A DNA stretch of 35,405 bases from Neptuniibacter marinus (GTDB lineage: Bacteria; Pseudomonadota; Gammaproteobacteria; Pseudomonadales; Balneatricaceae). A model generated the notes under the pieces. The model saw only the letters and a program-made list of their open reading frames with translations, made no database searches and was not told where the DNA came from. Location: positions 1-35,405 of the forward strand of contig NZ_LUTR01000030.1 in assembly GCF_001597725.1 (NCBI RefSeq). The letters are read 5' to 3'. The position numbers were made by a program, and so were the translations under genes. The first letter of the stretch is position 1. Every line of letters starts with the position of its first letter. Positions 13,850 to 31,363 of the stretch are shown one piece after another.

Positions 13850-14785
13850 ATGGACTTAAGTAATAAAAACCTACAATGTAAATTATGGTTTATTCTTGAC
13901 CTTATGTTGCAGTCTCGAGTTTCTAAATCGCCCATTATTCTGTCAGGGTTCTGGAGGAGTGGAACAACTTGGATACAACAGGTTATTGCTGAATCGGTTT
14001 GTGCAAAAACTCAATTTGAACCACTTGAACCGAATGCATTATTACCTTTGCATGGCGGGGCGAATTTTGACCTAATACAAGGTGCGTATATTCCTTTAAC
14101 TTGGGATGTTTTTTCTGAAAAAGACTGCCGTTTCCTTGATTTAGCCTTTAAAGGGGTCAGCCCTAAGCGTTCCGGCTTTAATTACCTTGCAAGAACTTCA
14201 TTTAAAGAGTGTTTTGCTGATCGGGTGGTGGTTAAGTTTGTGAGGGCACAATTTATATTGCCAGTGTTAATGCAACGTTATGGTGCTCAAGGCGTTATTC
14301 ATATTAGCCGTCACCCTATGGCTGTTATACAGAGTTTAATGAATGCTAAATGGGAGTGGGATTTTGCTGATATAGATTTATCAGACTTGTATTGGCGAGA
14401 AAATGAATTGTCGATATGTCCATTGTGGGAAGAATTGAAAGTTTATAAAAATGCATCAAAAGAAGAAAAAATTGCGGCCCTTTGGGCGCTTTCTGAAAGA
14501 GAAGTGCGGAAATCTGAAAATATTTTTTTTGTAAAATATGAAGAGTTATTAAAAGAACCTGATATAGGGTTTGCTAATCTATTAAAAACGCTAGGGCTAC
14601 AGGTTCATAAAGAAGTAGATTATTCAAAAGATAGTCCAGTGACTGCATTGAATAGAGTTGGGGCTAGTTTAGAAGAACGTTTGAACTCTTGGCGTACAAA
14701 TATGCCACATGATACTCAAATAAAGGTTCGAGCTGTGTTACGCAACCTTTGGCCTGAAGTGGATAATGAATGGGAACTAGGTTGA
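13850..14785 (+). CDS. PAPS-dependent sulfotransferase (1 of 3)
   Basis: The 311-residue cytosolic-type sulfotransferase has a clear 5'-phosphosulfate loop LSGFWRSGTTWIQ (31-43) and a 3'-phosphate-binding segment HISRHPMAVIQS (151-162). These are the two hallmarks of enzymes that move sulfate from PAPS to a hydroxyl group. GGAGGG precedes ATG 13850, 32 nt after the flippase stop. Its position among flippase and glycosyltransferase genes argues that it sulfates the polysaccharide unit while still lipid-linked in the cytoplasm. The acceptor is inference. Confidence 0.88.
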   Translation: MDLSNKNLQCKLWFILDLMLQSRVSKSPIILSGFWRSGTTWIQQVIAESVCAKTQFEPLEPNALLPLHGGANFDLIQGAYIPLTWDVFSEKDCRFLDLAFKGVSPKRSGFNYLARTSFKECFADRVVVKFVRAQFILPVLMQRYGAQGVIHISRHPMAVIQSLMNAKWEWDFADIDLSDLYWRENELSICPLWEELKVYKNASKEEKIAALWALSEREVRKSENIFFVKYEELLKEPDIGFANLLKTLGLQVHKEVDYSKDSPVTALNRVGASLEERLNSWRTNMPHDTQIKVRAVLRNLWPEVDNEWELG

Positions 14786-15823: not shown

Positions 15824-16868
15824 CAATCAACCTAAAATTAGTATCGTTATCACATGCTATAACTATGAGAAGTATATTAAGACCTCTATAGAGAGCGTGT
15901 TAAATCAAGATTATGTTAATAAAGAGCTTATTGTTGTTGATGATGTTTCTTCTGATTCATCAAGAGATATTATTAGTAGATATGATGACCATCTTGTTAC
16001 TGTTTTTCATGAGGAAAATAAAGGTCATGGTGGCGCCTTTAATAGTGGCTTTGCTGCAAGTTCGGGTGAGCTCGTTATTTTTTTAGACGCGGATGACTAC
16101 CTGCAGCCTGGAGCCCTAGATATAGCGGCAGCTAATTTGAGTACTAACTGCGCTATCTATATGTACCATATGGATTTAGTCGATGCTGAAGGGAAGGCTT
16201 ATGATGTCTTTCCTAAATATGAAGCACCGTTTGATACAGCAAAAGCAAAAGATAAGTTGTTACACTGCGGAAGGTATCAATCAACTGTCACATCAGGTTT
16301 GGTTTTTTCTCGCTCGTTCTTGAATCAAGTGATGCCGATGGATGAACATGCTTTCAGGCAGGGAGGGGATGGCTATCTTGTAACGCTCGCTCCTTTGTAT
16401 GGTTCTGTCCATGGTTTTGATGACAAACTATCGGCGTATCGACAGCATGGAGATAATCATTCTGGCTTCAACCAGTTGTTATTAAAACGGGCTGAATGGT
16501 GTATTGAGCATGATAAGCAGCGATATCTGGCTTTAGTTTTCCATGCGGAGAAAATGGGACATCTTTTATCTATTGATAAGATAGCTCAAAATGATCTATT
16601 GCATTTAGAGCAGAGGATGTGCCAATTATTATTCTCAGATAATACTGATAATAGACCAACGCTACGCACGTTTATTGCTAATAATGCAATTAAGGCTATG
16701 AACCACACTAATTTATCACCGGCTAATATAGTGCTTATAAAAGCATGGTGGTTTTTGTTAAAGATGCTTCCTAAGCTGTATGCAAAAAAGATATTCGCAT
16801 GGAGAATGCTTCCTTCATCACGCCCTTTGCTTCTTAAGAAATTAGCTAAATTACTTAGACGGATATAA
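15816..16868 (+). CDS. Family 2 glycosyltransferase
   Basis: This GT-A glycosyltransferase of 350 residues starts with ISIVITCYNYEKYIKTSIES, followed by VVDDVSSDSSRDI and the metal-binding FLDADDY. A conserved GGDGYLVTLAPLYG segment provides the general-base region. It should add a sugar to the growing repeat unit at the membrane. ATG 15816 is 9 nt from AGGGAG and overlaps the stop of the ExoA-like gene (ATGGATAG), so coupling is likely; the ATG at 15807 directly abuts the ribosome site. The stop shares one base with the next start (TAATG). Confidence 0.88.
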   Translation: MDSNQPKISIVITCYNYEKYIKTSIESVLNQDYVNKELIVVDDVSSDSSRDIISRYDDHLVTVFHEENKGHGGAFNSGFAASSGELVIFLDADDYLQPGALDIAAANLSTNCAIYMYHMDLVDAEGKAYDVFPKYEAPFDTAKAKDKLLHCGRYQSTVTSGLVFSRSFLNQVMPMDEHAFRQGGDGYLVTLAPLYGSVHGFDDKLSAYRQHGDNHSGFNQLLLKRAEWCIEHDKQRYLALVFHAEKMGHLLSIDKIAQNDLLHLEQRMCQLLFSDNTDNRPTLRTFIANNAIKAMNHTNLSPANIVLIKAWWFLLKMLPKLYAKKIFAWRMLPSSRPLLLKKLAKLLRRI

Positions 16869-17608
16869 TGATGGTGAATTTTAAAAAACTTTTTCAGCTG
16901 GTAACTCATCCAATCGTGACTACCAAAAAGTATGAAAAAATAATTTTATTAAGTCATATGAGAAGCCGTTCCTCCGTCCTTTCCCATGTTTTAGGAAGTA
17001 ATAGTGAAATTTCAGGTTATTATGAACAGCATCAAAGACATGCGGACCCACTTTTTGACATAAAAGTAAAAGCCAATTTACTTCTAGATAATAACTTGTC
17101 ATCTCAGCATCGTTATCTTTATGACAAAGTTTTACATGGACGTTTTGATCCAAAAAATCTACAAGGTTATAAAGTTATTGTTTTAATACGAAAGCCGAAC
17201 TCTGCTTTAAAAAGTATTATGTCTATGGGAAATCTTACTAAGAGCCTGTGGGGAAAGGATCCTTATCGTGCTTTTGCTTATTATTGTCAACGCCTGCAAA
17301 GCATTATAGATATTATTGAAAAAAATAATATTGATGTTTGTTTTGTTGAAGCTGATGACTTAGTTGAAAAAACAGATCATGTTCTTAATGAAATAAGTAC
17401 TTTTTTAGAATTAGATTCTCCATTATCTAGCCATTACAGGTCGTTTGATAAAACTGGTGAAGCTATTTATGGTGATCCATCGGATAATATTAAATCAGGC
17501 TCTATAGTTAAAACTGAAAATAATACGGCGGCAGTCGTTTCAGATGAACTTTTAGCTGTAGCTCAGCATTACTATGATAGGTGTCAACAGCTATGTATAA
17601 AAAATTAA
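16868..17608 (+). CDS. Sulfotransferase-like protein (2 of 3)
   Basis: The 246-residue protein has a P-loop-like N-terminal motif LLSHMRSRSSVLSHVLGSN (27-45), a form of the PAPS 5'-loop seen in divergent sulfotransferases, and a second segment VIVLIRKPNSALKSIMSM (103-120) resembling the 3'-phosphate-binding motif. It lacks the canonical GTTWI sequence, so the call is less firm than for the other two. It starts in a 1-nt overlap with the previous stop and its end overlaps the GH16 gene by 16 nt. Such tight coupling indicates a function on the same polysaccharide. Confidence 0.7.
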   Translation: MMVNFKKLFQLVTHPIVTTKKYEKIILLSHMRSRSSVLSHVLGSNSEISGYYEQHQRHADPLFDIKVKANLLLDNNLSSQHRYLYDKVLHGRFDPKNLQGYKVIVLIRKPNSALKSIMSMGNLTKSLWGKDPYRAFAYYCQRLQSIIDIIEKNNIDVCFVEADDLVEKTDHVLNEISTFLELDSPLSSHYRSFDKTGEAIYGDPSDNIKSGSIVKTENNTAAVVSDELLAVAQHYYDRCQQLCIKN

Positions 17609-18394: not shown

Positions 18395-19348
18395 TCAATT
18401 CTTTCTTGAATAAAGATGTTTTTTTACTTTATACCAGATATAAAAAGATGGATTCCAAAACAAATCAAGCATTGTGTTTACTAGGGCTAATCTTTTAGTA
18501 TTTAGAATTTCGTAGCCTAATGCTTTATGGCTTTCTCCAGCTATCCAGTTATATCTTGAGTGCTTGAAATTAGACCATTTTTCCCAGCGGCTGTTAGGTT
18601 GAAATGAATCTGTCTTTTTTGTAGGGTTCCAGTGAAGCTCTCCTTTTTTTGCTAGATCGGATGAGCCAATGATCGGTGCATTATCTATTGCGGAATAATT
18701 ATAGCTTTTCTCATCTAAGTCCAAAAAATTAATTATTCTTCTTAATTCTTTTTCTGTTTCTTTGTGTAAGTTTTCATATTTTACAATAAGTAATTTTTTT
18801 GTTTTTAGGTCTGAATTTATTATATTGATTGTTTTCTCTGCGTATAAATTCCATTCTTTCATCGCTATTGTTTGAGGTTTATTGAAGGATTTAGATGCAG
18901 ATTCTGTTACTGACCTTCCGTCTCTAGTAATAACAATTAAATATTCGTTAGGGAAGTATTCGAAAAAAGAGTCAATACTTTCTGTACTGGGGGTTTTTGT
19001 AATAAGAACGTGGTCCGAATTGATCCCTTTTTTCTGTGCTTCGGGTGTTTTTAATTGAGAGCGAAGGAAACGAATTAGGCCTGTCCCTAGTGCTTTTTTC
19101 ATTGATTTTTGAGTATGTAGTTGCTCTTCTACTTTCCAGTTTGGGTTCCAGCGATTACTGGTATAATGTACATAATTATCGAGTTGATCTATGTGCTCTA
19201 GGAGAAAGTCTTCCCATATAGGGCCAGGGCTGAAACAGTCTTCATGAATGCAAAGCATATTCTTTAAAAAGTTTGTGCCGCTCCGCTTTGCAGTACCTAA
19301 AATAAAAACATTCTTTCTTTCTGGTATGTGTGTTTGAGATGTATTCAT
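18395..19348 (-). CDS. PAPS-dependent sulfotransferase (3 of 3)
   Basis: The 317-residue sulfotransferase has the 5'-PAPS loop FILGTAKRSGTNFLKN (15-30) and the 3'-phosphate segment VITRDGRSVTESASKS (139-154). It lies on the minus strand, ending 10 nt from the GH16 stop, and starts a divergent pair with the acyltransferase at 19456. By eye it is more A+T-rich than the cys genes, with Lys/Asn/Ile-rich codons. Its separate orientation suggests a later addition or independent control. It should add sulfate to the polysaccharide or another glycan. Confidence 0.87.
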   Translation of the reverse strand: MNTSQTHIPERKNVFILGTAKRSGTNFLKNMLCIHEDCFSPGPIWEDFLLEHIDQLDNYVHYTSNRWNPNWKVEEQLHTQKSMKKALGTGLIRFLRSQLKTPEAQKKGINSDHVLITKTPSTESIDSFFEYFPNEYLIVITRDGRSVTESASKSFNKPQTIAMKEWNLYAEKTINIINSDLKTKKLLIVKYENLHKETEKELRRIINFLDLDEKSYNYSAIDNAPIIGSSDLAKKGELHWNPTKKTDSFQPNSRWEKWSNFKHSRYNWIAGESHKALGYEILNTKRLALVNTMLDLFWNPSFYIWYKVKKHLYSRKN

Positions 19349-25031: not shown

Positions 25032-25829
25032 TTAGGCCCAGAATTTACTGACTGCTGGGCAGGCAATGAAGTGCGGGTTTAGCAGTGTGTCTTTGCGACT
25101 GTTGTAGATGAGTGGTTTCATATCTTCTGCGCTAAGGACTTGCCCGCCAGCGGCTAGAACAACTGCATGGGCGGCAGCTGTATCCCACTCGCTGGTTAAA
25201 CCAAGACGCGGATATAGATCAGCTTTGCCTTCTGCGACTAAGCATAGTTTAAGGGAGCTGCCCATTGCGATGATATCTGCTTCGGGTAGTTTTTCCATAA
25301 ACTGTTTAAACTCTTCGGATTGGTGTGAACGACTACCAACAACTTTCCAGCCGGTGTTAACGGTTGGAACTTCAGCAACGCTGATTGGTGTTGGGGTTTG
25401 GTTGCCTTCTTGTTTGAATGCGCCTTCGCCTTTTGCGCCCCAGTAAAGTACATCTATGGCAGGGGCGTAAACAACACCGAAAACGGGTTCGCCATTTTCG
25501 ATTAGGGCCACGTTGATGGTGAATTCACCGTTTTTCTTAATGAACTCTTTAGTGCCATCTAAAGGATCGATAAGCCAGTAAGTTGTCCAACTGAAGCGAT
25601 TCTGCTTTTCTTCCTCGTTTGATTCTTCAGATAAGACGGGAATATTCGGTGTTAAGGCGTTTAGGCCTTTAACAAGGAGGGTGTGGGCCGCTAAGTCTGC
25701 TTCAGTTAATGGGCTGCTATCGGATTTATCGTATATAGCAAAATCTTTATCGTAAATTTCCATTACCGCTTGGCCCGCTTTACGGGATAATTCGTTGATC
25801 GGTTGGGAATAAGTCTCTAGGTTGTTCAT
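25032..25829 (-). CDS. cysQ: 3'(2'),5'-bisphosphate nucleotidase
   Basis: The 265-residue member of the inositol-monophosphatase-like superfamily hydrolyses 3'-phosphoadenosine 5'-phosphate (PAP), the inhibitory by-product of sulfotransferases and PAPS reductase, to AMP. Motifs are the metal site LIDPLDGTKEF (about 86-96), preceded by Glu residues in VLSEESNEEE, and SEWDTAAAHAVV near residue 215. AAGGAAGAG precedes the ATG. It lies 12 nt behind the SLC13 permease gene on the same strand, so the two form an operon. With three sulfotransferases nearby, clearing of PAP is the expected role. Confidence 0.93.
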   Translation of the reverse strand: MNNLETYSQPINELSRKAGQAVMEIYDKDFAIYDKSDSSPLTEADLAAHTLLVKGLNALTPNIPVLSEESNEEEKQNRFSWTTYWLIDPLDGTKEFIKKNGEFTINVALIENGEPVFGVVYAPAIDVLYWGAKGEGAFKQEGNQTPTPISVAEVPTVNTGWKVVGSRSHQSEEFKQFMEKLPEADIIAMGSSLKLCLVAEGKADLYPRLGLTSEWDTAAAHAVVLAAGGQVLSAEDMKPLIYNSRKDTLLNPHFIACPAVSKFWA

Positions 25830-25841
25830 AGCTCTTCCTTG

Positions 25842-27608
25842 TTAAAAATGCCAAATAAGAGGGATTAAGCTGATCGAGCAGGCGGCAGTAATTAGGCTCA
25901 TAGGCAGCCCAATCTTCATATAGTCTCGACTGTGGTACCCGCCGGGGCCCATCACCATTAAATTAGTTTGGTAGCCTAAGGGGGTAATAAAACTGGCGGA
26001 TGCTGCAAACATTACGGCAATGACAAAAGGTAGGTAGTTGACGTCCATTTTATCGGCAACCGCGATAGCAATAGGGAACATTAAAATTGCTGCTGCATTA
26101 TTAGTGATCATTTCTGTGAATGCGACAGTCAGTAGGTAAACAATAGCGAGCATGATCCAAGGGGATTGGTTTGCGCTTAAAAATAACTGGTTGGCAATAG
26201 CCTCGGCCGCTCCGGTTTTGGTCATGGCTGTACCTAATGAGAAAGAAGCGGCGATGACTGTTATAACTGTGAGGTCTACATTACGGCGCGCTTTGGCAAC
26301 AGAAATGCAACGTGTCGCTAACATTGCGCCTGCAGCTAGCAGTGCTGATTCCAGTATGGTTAATAAGCTGGTAGCGCTGAGCATTATCATCGCAAATAGA
26401 ATCATTAATGCGGTAGGTGCTTTGTCGAATGCGGGTGGTGTTGAATCATTAATTGCGCTGACCAGTAAAAAGTCGCGTCTAGATCTATATTGGCCTACAA
26501 AGTCTTGGCTTGTTTCGAGCAGGAGAGTGTCACCCACTTGTAAACGGATATCACCAATTTTACCCACAATACGTTGCCCGTTTCGAGAGACTGAGATGAT
26601 CGCTGCTTGGAAGCGGGTTCTGAAGCGGGAGTTCTTTATTGATTGATCAAGTCCTGTAAATTCTGGGCCAATTACGGCTTCGACTAAGCAGCGTTCGTGG
26701 TGAGTTATTTGTAGTTTTTCTATATCTTTGCTGGCGGGCGTTAGGCCGCGGATCAGTCTAATTTCTCGTGCGCATTCTGGCGAGCCAACAAAGATAAGTC
26801 TGTCGTTAGCAACCAGTTCCCTGTCGGGTGATGCTGCGGTGATCATGCGTGATTGGCGATGAATCTCAATTAAATAGCCGTGGCTCAGATTACGTAGGCC
26901 TGCTTCTTCTATTGTTTTTCCGACTAAAGGGCCATTTTCATCAACAATGACATCAACGCTGTACTCGCGTGCTAAATCAAGCTGCTCTACCGCCCCTTGG
27001 CGGTTAGGGAGGAGCTTGTCGCCAAAGAAGTAGAGAAACATACCGCCAATAATAACTAAAGGTAGACCTAGCCAAATCAAAGAGAACATGCTCAGCGACA
27101 GGCCTTGTGTTGATTGTAGTAGACCGTCGACTACAAGGTTGGTGCTGGTGCCTATTAAGGTGCAGGTGCCGCCGAGAATTGCTGCATAGCTTAGGGGTAG
27201 TAGTAGTTTAGAGGCCGGAATTTTTGTCCGTTTAGACCACTCTTGAATGGAGGGGATAAACATCGCAACAACAGCTGTGTTGTTCATAAAAGCACTAAGG
27301 AAGGATGAAGGCAAAAATACTTTAAAGGTGGCTTGCTGTGTTGTTTTGGGGTTGCCTAATAGTTGCCCTGCTATCCACTGAATCGCTCCAGTTTCTTTTA
27401 GTCCTGCGGAAACTACGTAAAGGGTGGCGATTGTCATTACGCCGGGGTTGGCAAATCCGTATAGCCCTTCTGATGGTGTCAGAATTCCTGAGATTACTAA
27501 AAACCCCAATGCCCCCATCAATATGACATCGGAAGCAATTTTTGTCGTTAGTAGTGTTAGGAGTACGGAAACGACGGTGGCAATGGTGAGATAGGCTTCA
27601 TAATCCAT
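25842..27608 (-). CDS. SLC13/DASS family permease with RCK_C domains, likely sulfate uptake
   Basis: The 588-residue inner-membrane protein has two transport halves. The first contains FMNNTAVVAMFIP and GTSTNLVVDGLL; the second contains ITNNAAAILMFPIA and GYQTNLMVMGPGGYHSRDY. These are the paired SNT-type substrate/sodium motifs of the family. A cytoplasmic insert (about 205-380) holds two TrkA-C/RCK_C-like regulatory domains (around EEAGLRNLSHGYLIEIHRQS and LLETSQDFV). Similar permeases are often encoded with sulfate-activation genes, so sulfate is the likely substrate; other divalent anions are possible. It is the first gene of the minus operon with cysQ, divergent from cysD. Confidence 0.87.
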   Translation of the reverse strand: MDYEAYLTIATVVSVLLTLLTTKIASDVILMGALGFLVISGILTPSEGLYGFANPGVMTIATLYVVSAGLKETGAIQWIAGQLLGNPKTTQQATFKVFLPSSFLSAFMNNTAVVAMFIPSIQEWSKRTKIPASKLLLPLSYAAILGGTCTLIGTSTNLVVDGLLQSTQGLSLSMFSLIWLGLPLVIIGGMFLYFFGDKLLPNRQGAVEQLDLAREYSVDVIVDENGPLVGKTIEEAGLRNLSHGYLIEIHRQSRMITAASPDRELVANDRLIFVGSPECAREIRLIRGLTPASKDIEKLQITHHERCLVEAVIGPEFTGLDQSIKNSRFRTRFQAAIISVSRNGQRIVGKIGDIRLQVGDTLLLETSQDFVGQYRSRRDFLLVSAINDSTPPAFDKAPTALMILFAMIMLSATSLLTILESALLAAGAMLATRCISVAKARRNVDLTVITVIAASFSLGTAMTKTGAAEAIANQLFLSANQSPWIMLAIVYLLTVAFTEMITNNAAAILMFPIAIAVADKMDVNYLPFVIAVMFAASASFITPLGYQTNLMVMGPGGYHSRDYMKIGLPMSLITAACSISLIPLIWHF

Positions 27609-27651: not shown

Positions 27652-27708
27652 ATCAAGACAAATATTATTTAATAGTGTCTTGATAGCGTAACCTTTAAAC
27701 CGTAGTAT
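27652..27708 (+). promoter_or_regulatory. Promoter and operator-like inverted repeat between permease and cysD
   Basis: A perfect 9-bp inverted repeat ATCAAGACA (27652-27660) and TGTCTTGAT (27676-27684) with a 15-nt spacer lies in the 129-bp divergent gap. Its right arm overlaps a -35 TTGATA (27680-27685), followed after exactly 17 bp by TAGTAT (27703-27708), a fair sigma70 -10. The leader to ATG 27738 would be about 23 nt. The arrangement suits a repressor controlling the sulfur module. The DNA-binding domain at the N-terminus of the adjacent CysD is a candidate ligand (inference). Confidence 0.5.
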
Positions 27709-27737
27709 TACAACTGATTAAATGTTGAACTGATGTT

Positions 27738-29459
27738 ATGACCAATCAAAAATCTAAACAGGGCACTGCTGATCAGCTTCGAACGAAGGCGGTTGTTATG
27801 CGACTGCATAAAAAAACGTTGGAGCAGATTCGTGAAGTCACTGGGTTGAGTCATCCTACTATTATTTCGGCTTATAAAAAGTTCATGAAAGGTGGTTGGA
27901 AGGCGTTAGTTTCTAAAAGCAGTGGCCGCCCTGCAGGGGCTAAAGGGTTAAAGCTACACAGTGCGGAAGAGGCGTTTACTCGGTTACTAAGTATAGAGTC
28001 GCCCTGTGAATTGTTTGAAGATGGTGTGTTTTGGACTCCTGAGCATGTGCAGCGCTGGTTGGAGGTTGAGTTAGGTGAAGTGCTCTCGATTAAATCTGTG
28101 CAGCGCTATTTACAAGAATTAGGCTTGATTGATTCAGAAAAGTTTGAGGTGGCACGAGAAGAGGTGCTTAGTCAGTCGAAGCTGTCTAAATTACCTACAA
28201 TTTATGTTTCAGGCTTAAGAGATATATCCTTTGCAGGGCAACGGTTTTATCAGTTCTATTTGACGGATTTGAGGAATAGCTCTCGTTGGATTCATTATAA
28301 AGAAAAGCCAACAATTTTAGAGCTGCTTAAATTTCTGGATTTGGTAATTGAAACAAGTTCGAACCCCGTGGTTTTGATATCACGTTATCCGCTGGTGGAA
28401 CGATATTCAGAGTTTCAAAATTGGTGTGCTTTGCATGCTAAAAAGATTGAATTTATCGCTTATGAACAGGTGGTTCATCAGGCGAAAGGTAAAGATTTAC
28501 AAATTACTACTGAGCAGAAGACTTCGTCTTCAAATAGGAAGGTATCTTCGGGAGATAATATGCCATTAACACATTTACAACGTCTGGAAGCGGAAAGTAT
28601 CCAGATAATGAGGGAGGTTGTCGCAGAGACTGAAAATCCTGTGATGTTGTATTCCATCGGGAAGGATAGTGCGGTAATGCTGCATATTGCAATGAAGGCA
28701 TTTTACCCTTCGTTACCCCCTTTTCCTCTACTGCATGTTGATACGCGGTGGAAGTTTCAAGAGATGTACGCTTTTAGGGATAAAATGGTTGAAGATCTAG
28801 GTCTTAAACTTATTACCCATATTAACCCTGAAGGAATTGAAAAGGGTATTAACCCTTTTACTCATGGTTCTGCTATTCATACAGATATCATGAAAACGGA
28901 AGGCTTAAAGCAGGCATTGAATGAATATGGTTTTGATGCTGCTTTTGGTGGTGCCCGCCGAGATGAAGAAAAATCGCGCGCTAAAGAGCGTATTTTCTCT
29001 TTCCGTAGTGCTGATCATCGCTGGGACCCTAAAAATCAGCGCCCAGAGCTTTGGAAGCAGTATAACGCTAGGAAGCATAAGGGTGAGTCGATCCGTGTCT
29101 TTCCGATCTCTAACTGGACCGAGCTAGATATTTGGCAGTATATCCATTTGGAGGGCATTCCTATTGTGCCGCTTTATTACTCCGCAGAGCGTCCTGTCGT
29201 TGAGCGTGATGGTTCTTTGATTATGGTTGATGATGATCGTATGCCTTTGAAAGAGGGTGAGATTCCAATGATGAAGCATGTTCGTTTTAGAACCTTAGGT
29301 TGTTATCCATTGACAGGTGCTGTGGAATCTAAGGCGACAACCTTGCCTGATATTATTCAGGAAATGCTTCTGACTAAAACGTCGGAGCGACAAGGCCGTG
29401 TAATCGATCACGATTCAGCCGCATCTATGGAGAAGAAGAAGCAGGAGGGGTACTTCTAA
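27738..29459 (+). CDS. cysD: Sulfate adenylyltransferase subunit 2 fused to a transposase-like N-terminal region
   Basis: Residues 275-573 are a complete CysD: the PP-loop [10 protein letters not shown] (306-315), then [20 protein letters not shown] and the C-terminal RQGRVIDHD. With CysN it makes APS from sulfate and ATP. Residues 1-274 are extra. A helix-turn-helix (about 14-60, [20 protein letters not shown]) runs into [15 protein letters not shown] second winged helix (about 99-130, [20 protein letters not shown]) follows. Residues 153-245 resemble an IS630-type RNase H core whose expected DN pair reads SR (215-216). A Ser/Thr/Lys-rich linker (257-274) joins it to CysD. No stop interrupts the frame. 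ATG 28560 (Met275) has its own GGGAG at 28550-28554, 5 nt upstream, so free CysD could also be made. ATG 27738 lacks a clear ribosome site. The stop overlaps cysNC. Confidence 0.88.
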
Positions 29460-31363
29460 TGGCTCATGTATCTGATTTAATTGAAAGTGATATCGCTCAG
29501 TATCTTAAAGACCATGAGCATAAAAGTTTATTACGTTTCATTACTTGCGGTAGCGTTGATGATGGCAAAAGTACGCTGATTGGACGTTTGTTGTTCGAAT
29601 CAAAAATGCTCTTTGAAGATCAGTTAGCTGCTGTAGAGTCTGATTCTAAGAAGTTTGGTACTCAAGGTGAATCGATAGATTTTGCGTTGCTGGTGGATGG
29701 TTTAGCTGCTGAACGTGAGCAAGGTATTACCATTGATGTTGCTTATCGTTTCTTCTCGACTGACCGCCGTAAATTTATCGTCGCGGATACACCGGGTCAT
29801 GAGCAGTACACTCGTAATATGGTGACGGGAGCGTCAACAGCAGATGTTGCTATTTTGATGGTTGATGCGCGTAAAGGTATTTTGACGCAAACCCGTCGCC
29901 ATAGCTTTTTGGTCTCTTTGATTGGTATTCGCCATATTGTTGTAGCCATCAATAAGATGGATTTGGTTGATTACTCTGAAGGTGTTTTTAATAACATCGT
30001 TGAAGAGTATCAGGCATTTGCCGCTGAAGTGGGGATCGAAAAAATAACCTTTATCCCTATGTCTGCTTTTAAAGGCGACAACGTCACTGAGTGCAGTGAA
30101 AGAATGCCATGGTATCGCGGCACTACGCTGATGGGCTATCTTGAAACCGTTGAGGTAGATGATGAGCGAGTGCAACGTTTGCCGTTCCGTATGGCTGTGC
30201 AGTGGGTCAATCGTCCAAACTTAGATTTTCGTGGATTCTCTGGTCTATTGGCTGGAGGTAAGATCCATCCTGGTGATAAAGTGCGAGTTTTACCTTCAGG
30301 TAAAGAAAGCACCGTTGCGCGTATAGTTACTATGGACGGTGATTTAGATGAGGCAGTGGCTGGTCAGTCGGTTACGTTGACGCTGGCTGATGAGATTGAT
30401 GTGTCCCGTGGCGATCTGTTAGTTGAATCTGCTCAGCCTGCATCGGTTGCGAAACAGTTTGAAACGACTGTTGTGTGGATGCATGAAGAGTCGCTTTTAC
30501 CGGGCCGTACTTATCTTATGAAAGTGGGTACACAGACGGTTTCTGCAACAATTACTGATATTAAATATCAAGTAAATGTGAATACGCTTGAGCATACAGC
30601 GGCTAAAAGTTTAGAGCTTAATGGTATTGGTATCTGCTCGTTGAGTCTTGACCGCGATATTGCTTTTGATCCTTATAAAGAGAATCAGGACACAGGTAAT
30701 TTCATTTTAATCGACAGGCTAACAAATAGTACTGTGGGTGCCGGCATGATCAACTTTGCGCTACGTCGTAGCCACAATATTACTATCCAGCATGTGGATG
30801 TTAATAAAGAGGGTCGTGGTAGTGCTAAGCATCAGAAGCCGTGTATTATTTGGTTAACTGGATTGTCAGGTGCCGGTAAGTCAACTATTGCAAACCTAGT
30901 TGAACAGAAACTGTTTGCGATGGGGCGTCATACTTACCTACTAGATGGTGATAATGTTCGTCATGGTTTAAACAAGGACTTGGGCTTTACTGATGGTGAT
31001 CGTGTAGAAAATATTCGCCGCATTGCTGAGGTTGGAAAACTGATGCTGGATGCGGGTCTGATTGTTATCTCTGCGTTTATCTCGCCATTCCGTTCAGAGC
31101 GCCGTATGGCACGCGAGCTAGTGGAAGAGGGTGAATTTGTCGAAGTTTTTGTCAATACGCCCTTGGATGTTGCGGAAGATAGAGACGTGAAAGGTCTTTA
31201 TAAGAAAGCTAGACGGGGTGAATTGAAGAACTTTACAGGTGTTGATTCACCTTATGAAGCACCAGAAAATCCAGAGTGTGACCTGCGCACAGCCGGTTAT
31301 AGTGCTGATGAGTGTGCAGAGCAAGTTGTAGAGTACCTTCAGAAAAATGGCTACTTAGGTTAA
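29459..31363 (+). CDS. cysNC: Bifunctional sulfate adenylyltransferase subunit 1 / APS kinase
   Basis: The 634-residue fusion has a GTPase half and a kinase half. CysN carries G1 GSVDDGKST (31-39), G3 DTPGHEQYT (110-118) and NKMD, followed by beta-barrel domains; it drives APS synthesis by GTP hydrolysis with CysD. From residue 460 the CysC domain has P-loop GLSGAGKST (468-476), [10 protein letters not shown] and FISPFRSER with the phospho-acceptor serine, and phosphorylates APS to PAPS. The same fusion occurs in NodQ, which feeds a sulfotransferase in rhizobia. AGGAGG (29443-29448) lies 10 nt before the ATG, which overlaps the cysD stop (TAATG), so the subunits are co-translated. The product PAPS is the donor for the three sulfotransferases. 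Confidence 0.95.

Follow-up and report, generated by a model that had tools for sequence, protein, structure and literature searches.

PutA of E. coli is an enzyme with its own DNA-binding domain, described as binding only the spacer between its own gene, putA, and the divergent gene of its substrate transporter, putP, and as repressing there (PMC8249747). BzdR is built from an N-terminal DNA-binding domain, a linker and an enzyme-like domain (PMC3602430). In animals, the DNA-binding parts of transposases have been re-used in host proteins that act as transcription factors; the account is eukaryotic, and its abstract mentions no metabolic enzyme (PMC10027918). The PAPS genes described for sulfated capsule loci are second copies of cysC, cysN and cysD in Vibrio, and in Cobetia they comprise cysN/cysC, cysD, cysQ and a sulfate permease (PMC11766843, PMC11641403). 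The main text of neither paper mentions a helix-turn-helix, a transposase or a regulator.

Here we describe HTH-CysD, encoded in a polysaccharide locus of Neptuniibacter marinus. The window, meaning the whole stretch of DNA that was analysed, is 35,405 nucleotides long (contig NZ_LUTR01000030.1; Table 1). Like PutA, HTH-CysD combines an enzyme with a DNA-binding domain and has one predicted target, between its own gene and a divergent gene for a transporter of its substrate. Unlike PutA, its DNA-binding part comes from an IS630-type transposase, its enzyme is the small subunit of ATP sulfurylase, and it probably yields two products from one frame. HTH-CysD has the layout of BzdR, in which a linker connects a DNA-binding N-terminus to an enzyme-like domain. 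With the animal transcription factors it shares the re-use of a transposase DNA-binding part, and with the capsule loci of Cobetia and Vibrio the placement of cysD beside cysN/cysC in a polysaccharide cluster, in Cobetia also with cysQ and a sulfate permease. A literature search, largely outside subscription journals, found no HTH-CysD fusion in titles or the openings of abstracts. We put the probability that HTH-CysD is a PutA-like trigger enzyme controlling its own sulfation (PAPS) operon at roughly 0.64.

Table 1. Features of the N. marinus window (positions count from its first nucleotide)
Feature	Position	Strand	Basis
cysQ-like phosphatase (inositol-phosphatase family)	25032..25829	-	name CysQ from gene context
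Divergent anion permease	25842..27608	-	CitMHS, TrkA_C and Na_sulph_symp matches
Inverted repeat ATCAAGACA-N15-TGTCTTGAT	27652..27684	.	operator of the earlier note; left arm not conserved
Second half-site-like element ATTATTTAATAG	27664..27675	+	position corresponds by eye to Amphritea sites
Sigma70-like promoter TTGATA-17-TAGTAT	27680..27708	+	promoter-like site search
Candidate operator GATTAAATGTTGAACT	27716..27731	+	best match in the window to the family palindrome; rank p 0.009
HTH-CysD fusion, 573 aa	27738..29459	+	single open frame, ATG start; same architecture in 48/50 named loci
First helix-turn-helix (residues 3-57)	27744..27908	+	AlphaFold2 model; conservation among 48 extensions
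Winged-helix region (residues 76-146)	27963..28175	+	model, profile comparison, Pfam HTH matches below cut-off
RNase H-like core without catalytic acids (residues 154-245)	28197..28472	+	AlphaFold2; Mos1 top PDB match
Linker, mostly low model confidence	28473..28559	+	AlphaFold2; synonymous sites conserved in last 25 codons
GGGAG, Shine-Dalgarno-like	28550..28554	+	sequence, before internal ATG at 28560
CysD domain (residues 275-573)	28560..29459	+	profile matches; probable separate 299-aa product from internal ATG
cysNC (ATP sulfurylase large subunit and APS kinase)	29459..31363	+	profile matches
Sulfotransferase, probable PAPS user	13850..14785	+	profile match
Sulfotransferase, probable PAPS user	18395..19348	-	profile match

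A transposase-derived extension fused to CysD

The earlier note had read the frame as fully open and its last 299 residues as a CysD, and both readings hold. The CysD part scores far above the curated cut-offs of NF009214 (552.6 bits, cut-off 413) and TIGR02039 (511.5 bits, cut-off 396.6), and the gene for its partner, cysNC, adjoins. Residues 306-311 read SIGKDS, which we take to be the nucleotide-binding motif of CysD; the activity is predicted. A second, plain CysD (78% identical) is encoded elsewhere in the same genome, which has one copy of the extension.

The proposed IS630-type origin of residues 1-274 is borne out by profile comparison and structure prediction. A profile of 48 extensions matches a profile of 10 IS630-type transposases with a probability of 100 (E 1.8e-45), and the match spans the helix-turn-helix (HTH), the winged helix and the RNase H region. 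AlphaFold2 models residues 1-274 (pLDDT 83.6) as an HTH, a winged helix and a beta-beta-beta-alpha-beta-alpha-beta core, and the best PDB match of this model in Foldseek is the Mos1 mariner transposase (E 2.1e-5, global TM-score 0.26). Given such low full-length TM-scores, the fold claim rests on the E-value, the profile match and the domain order. The NCBIfam IS630 transposase model aligns with residues 17-130 (E 3.6e-10) at 39.8 bits, well under its 100-bit cut-off, and Pfam HTH models match the extension below their cut-offs only. DDE_3, the Pfam transposase catalytic domain, is still matched by one of the 48 extensions (E 7.2e-5), and a profile search of PDB sequences gave a single weak match (E 0.08).

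The extension shares the IS630 fold and lacks its acidic catalytic triad. The first Asp is replaced by Gly159, SR stands at residues 215-216 where DN is expected (as had been noticed from the sequence), and the transposase segment that would carry the third acid is absent. Among the 48 extensions the first position is Gly in 37 and Asp in 2, and the second is Asp in none. Twelve of the 13 invariant positions fall within or just past the first HTH (residues 15-64), where R15, V19, S38, P40, T41, K47, G53 and W54 of the HTH are identical in 48/48; in the core, R179 is conserved in 46/48 and W184 in 47/48. The extension ends in the flexible linker that had been predicted, most of it modelled with low confidence. 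The extension is an IS630/Tc1-mariner-type HTH, winged helix and RNase H-like core with its catalytic residues lost, and by sequence and model an intact enzyme domain and a DNA-binding domain occupy one chain, as expected of a trigger enzyme.

Distribution, variant forms and ancestry

The earlier note, aware of no described CysD of this type, read the gene as CysD fused to a decayed transposase. The loss of catalysis stands, but the fusion is neither a one-off nor decaying, and its spread over Gamma- and Betaproteobacteria had been missed. When the extension alone was the query in named genomes, 50 loci were returned, and the search for the same architecture that the earlier note suggested succeeded in 48 of them, in frame with CysD; the other two (L033, L045) are cut by record ends. 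Fusions occur in Neptuniibacter, Amphritea, Marinobacterium, Pokkaliibacter, Zobellella, Azohydromonas, Comamonas, Pusillimonas, Achromobacter, Methyloversatilis, Rubrivivax and Granulosicoccaceae, and the extension of Neptuniibacter sp. 1_MG-2023 is 96% identical. Within the window's family, the full fusion occurs in 23 of the 116 genomes and a split pair in 2. The class and phylum searches scored 5-6 candidates per genome and give lower bounds: at least 5 of 369 genomes of the class carry a fusion (the window's own genome counted, and a short form, L108, among them) and at least one a split pair, and at least 15 of 398 genomes of the phylum have an extension match. Ten of these 15 were examined and hold one fusion (the window's own), three split pairs and six free-standing frames; the free-standing matches are mostly transposase-like.

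Several variants exist. A second fusion type (L147-L156, e.g. L154:2414-3898), present in at least 10 of the 116 family genomes, one of them of the window's own genus, has an extension of ~195 aa that keeps the winged helix and the core; the first HTH is missing and the palindrome described below mostly so. It is homologous to the first type (E 1.2e-9), and no genome was seen with both types. In the short fusion (L108:511-1761, minus strand, 416 aa) the first HTH alone is joined to CysD. Extension and CysD are separate frames in the split forms L084, L089, L099, L215 and L217, of which L099, L215 and L217 come from another family of the order. At L025:5916-9793 the permease and the extension stand in a tandem copy upstream of a full fusion, the second extension copy being a separate 266-aa frame. 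A 451-aa frame around cysD in G042 (L157) was rejected as a fusion; it is an accident whose leader is the antisense of a permease gene.

In a tree of 48 fused and 5 split extensions with 11 transposases, the extensions form one clade (support 100) with the split forms nested inside; the method was quick, branches are long, and the second type, L098, L100, L101 and L108 were left out. In the CysD tree, plain CysD beside cysN form one group (support 99), and five plain CysD from cysNC operons, with no extension, sit among fused ones and are best read as having lost it. The fused CysD do not cluster together in this tree: the label changes 10 times, starred branches force at least 3 of these changes, and loss, swapping or repeated joining would all fit. 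The earlier note would have counted it against its reading if the closest relatives all began at Met275 with unrelated sequence upstream. This applies in part: some close relatives do have a plain 299-residue CysD, which fits repeated loss of the extension. Together with the fusions that lack the first HTH, these revertants indicate that the DNA-binding part is dispensable.

Selection bears out the suggested domestication. Simple counting, in which dS reaches saturation for some pairs, puts dN/dS of the extension at 0.105 and 0.135 within Neptuniibacter and at 0.12-0.46 for nine further pairs (0.10-0.46 over all 11). The CysD part gives 0-0.12 over the pairs and 0.01-0.03 within Neptuniibacter, and this high conservation sets it apart from the shikimate-kinase-like domain of BzdR, which is inactive and binds the effector. 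The extension is a conserved protein that evolves faster than the enzyme part, and the fusion is an old, conserved family rather than a recent or decaying accident. That the catalytic residues are gone and that extension identity between genera is low could suggest a recent chance fusion to a functionless, decaying transposase remnant. Open frames, the dN/dS values and a single clade spanning Gamma- and Betaproteobacteria speak against this; conservation already refutes it, and we give it next to no credence.

A probable internal start for CysD

The window junction reads TCGGGAGATAAT-ATG. A junction start codon, ATG in 32 and GTG in 3, is present in 35 of the 48 fused loci, and an SD-like 4-mer accompanies 27 of the 32 ATGs. 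The other 13 loci have neither codon: L066 has no start codon whatever from 15 codons before the junction to 3 after it, and nine more have only an ATG 4-14 codons upstream that lacks an SD-like 4-mer. The fusions of Methyloversatilis and Achromobacter were considered as obligate, a reading that was rejected: most of their loci offer an alternative start, either an ATG 10 codons before the junction or a GTG or TTG close to it.

Between the window and N. pectenicola, pS over the last 25 codons before the ATG is 0.12, against 0.69 in the rest of the extension, and pN is 0.10 against 0.18. As pS falls far more than pN, it is the DNA, more than the protein, that is held constant. Over the last 15 codons, six of seven gammaproteobacterial pairs that keep the ATG have pS of 0.00-0.34, and the seventh, a Marinobacterium pair, 0.54. 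Five pairs lacking a junction ATG gave 0.00 (L061-L067), 0.26, 0.38, 0.55 and 0.85, and are imperfect controls: in most Methyloversatilis-type loci an ATG stands 10 codons before the junction, and L055 has a GTG. Start codon, ribosome site and synonymous-site conservation together suggest that a free 299-residue CysD is probably also made from the window gene. The earlier note was right about the open fusion frame and missed the retained CysD start.

A palindrome in the fusion promoter

The earlier note proposed the inverted repeat at 27652-27684 as the operator. It is present exactly, but its role as an operator is not well supported and we rejected it: the two other Neptuniibacter records differ in the left arm, where they read ATTAAGACA and ATTGAGACA, and the right arm runs into a -35 box, that of the best-placed promoter-like site. 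Four promoter-like sites were found against 2.1 expected, which is weak on its own. The hexamers of the best-placed site are unchanged in the three aligned Neptuniibacter records, with two changes in the spacer.

The relatives share another palindrome upstream of fusions, with consensus CATTAAA-nn-TTTAATG (ATTAAAT-ATTTAAT), first noticed by eye and then tested against 215 other intergenic regions of the same loci. ATTAAAT lies upstream in 18 of 35 fusion loci and in 4 of the 215 control regions, and ATGTTTAA in 10 of 35 and none of 215, respectively, the control regions being richer in GC (53% versus 43%). A palindromic model seeded with the by-eye consensus, applied leaving out one clade at a time, finds a site at p<0.05 in 28 of the 35 loci. 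The seven with no significant site are L028 and L035 (Marinobacterium), L059 (Pokkaliibacter), L038 (Comamonas), L046, L055 and L056. An unseeded palindromic search returned nATTAAATATTTAATn as its best motif, with LL 215.3. The 12 control sets, six of them taken from the controls highest in AT (mean GC about 0.43), scored 31.3-48.0; the search used 60 starts on the fusion set and 30 on each control set.

In the window, the best match to the family palindrome begins 7 bp past the -10 box and is an imperfect site; its rank p was computed against the 215 control regions with the window's own clade left out of the model, and the stretch has few changes in the three aligned Neptuniibacter records. 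A site at the expected transcript start would suit a repressor. A universal -10 box directly 5' of the palindrome was considered and rejected, being clear only in Azohydromonas (L027, L030, L034) and weaker in a few others.

The palindrome is associated with the presence of the first HTH. The control 95% line is passed by 2 of 23 plain cysD genes beside cysN (24 fetched, one unscored), by none of 6 plain cysD-cysNC genes and by 2 of 10 fusions that lack the first HTH. Among further first-type, split and short loci, 8 of 16 scored (17 given) pass it, or 5 of 12 when four records already in the model are removed; L108, with the first HTH only, has no significant palindrome upstream. In 14 genomes, chosen partly for the motif at their loci, the exact pattern ATTAAATNNTTAAT has 21 distinct occurrences, of which 9 fall in a fusion promoter (within 85 bp before the fusion). 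In 6 of the 14 genomes it occurs nowhere else, and 3 have no exact match.

A probable sulfation locus

The window encodes Wzx-like and Wzy-like proteins, two sulfotransferases, a GH16 enzyme, the cysQ-like phosphatase, the permease and cysNC. A cysNC-matching frame lies directly 3' of the fusion in 46 of the 48 loci, and the other two records end there. In 32 of the 48, the upstream gene is divergent and encodes an SLC13 permease (17) or cysQ (15). Considering this polysaccharide locus and the capsule loci of Vibrio and Cobetia, the fused CysD most likely makes PAPS for sulfation and not for cysteine. By eye, positions 16868-17608 of the window also look sulfotransferase-like (RSRSSVLSHVLG; no Pfam match at 1e-5), and 344-781 resemble a REP-associated (Y1-type) transposase frame, followed by a repetitive frame.

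Proposed mechanism and alternatives

From what was computed (the fusion, its origin, lost catalysis and selection, the motif and how it goes with the first HTH, and synonymous conservation at the junction), we infer DNA binding, autoregulation, repression, a signal and a second protein. An ancestral IS630-family transposase would have lost catalysis, and its HTH/winged-helix/RNase H part would have been fused to cysD in a PAPS-making cysD-cysNC operon of the sulfation type. As a dimer, the N-terminal part most likely binds the CATTAAA-nn-TTTAATG palindrome in its own operon promoter, in line with the DNA-binding role that the earlier note thought plausible. The bound fusion would control, and probably repress, cysD-cysNC and often also the divergent permease or cysQ. 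By analogy, the state of the CysD domain, its substrates or the CysD-CysN(C) complex may release the fusion, setting PAPS for polysaccharide sulfation. In the window, the internal start probably supplies extra CysD that lacks the DNA-binding part. A bolder version, which we regard as speculative and doubtful in full, has one gene acting as sensor, regulator and enzyme, with the transposase module reading its own promoter alone and reporting sulfate activation via CysD, and the internal start giving a regulator-free enzyme.

In the second fusion type the first HTH is gone but the RNase H-like core remains. The main rival is accordingly a reading in which the extension serves CysD as an oligomerisation or protein-protein module, with CysNC or sulfotransferases as possible partners, and another regulator binds the palindrome. 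The conserved R179 and W184 of the core fit this reading, and there is a precedent in Caenorhabditis, where an account of F-box proteins describes a captured Tc1/mariner HTH in a role that is not transcriptional (PMC12062965). We nevertheless consider it unlikely: neither plain cysD genes nor fusions missing the first HTH are usually preceded by the palindrome, nearly all invariant positions cluster in or just after that HTH, and L108 keeps only the first HTH, though its upstream region lacks a significant palindrome.

The internal ATG with its SD sequence, the strong synonymous conservation in the window's group, the frequency of junction start codons and the split forms would suit a reading in which CysD is made solely as the 299-aa protein, initiated at its own ATG, with the upstream frame a separate regulator or an in-frame passenger. 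Separate translation would not preserve one open frame, and both parts share one in all 48 readable loci, across many genera; the 13 loci that lack a junction ATG or GTG, among them L066 and the nine with only a distant ATG, also argue against it. We find this reading improbable, more so than an interaction module.

If HTH-CysD is the trigger enzyme that we favour, a bacterial metabolic enzyme gained control over transcription when it captured a transposase's DNA-binding part, the same route as that described for animal transcription factors (PMC10027918). Its stages would be preserved in living genomes as fusions with an internal start, fusions that lack a junction start, trimmed forms, split forms and losses. 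HTH-CysD would be an unusual regulator-enzyme that switches its own operon, and PAPS supply for sulfated polysaccharides would be tied, at a predicted site, to a regulator carried by the supplying enzyme.

The origin of the site itself can be considered. A scan of 7 transposase-like frames showed flanking inverted repeats for 5, and in four IS630 relatives (L092, L096, L106, L107) the repeat tips read TATTAAC, resembling the half-site CATTAAA. The resemblance extends over no more than about five bases; as a lead, it suggests that the operator may have arisen from an end of the transposon itself.
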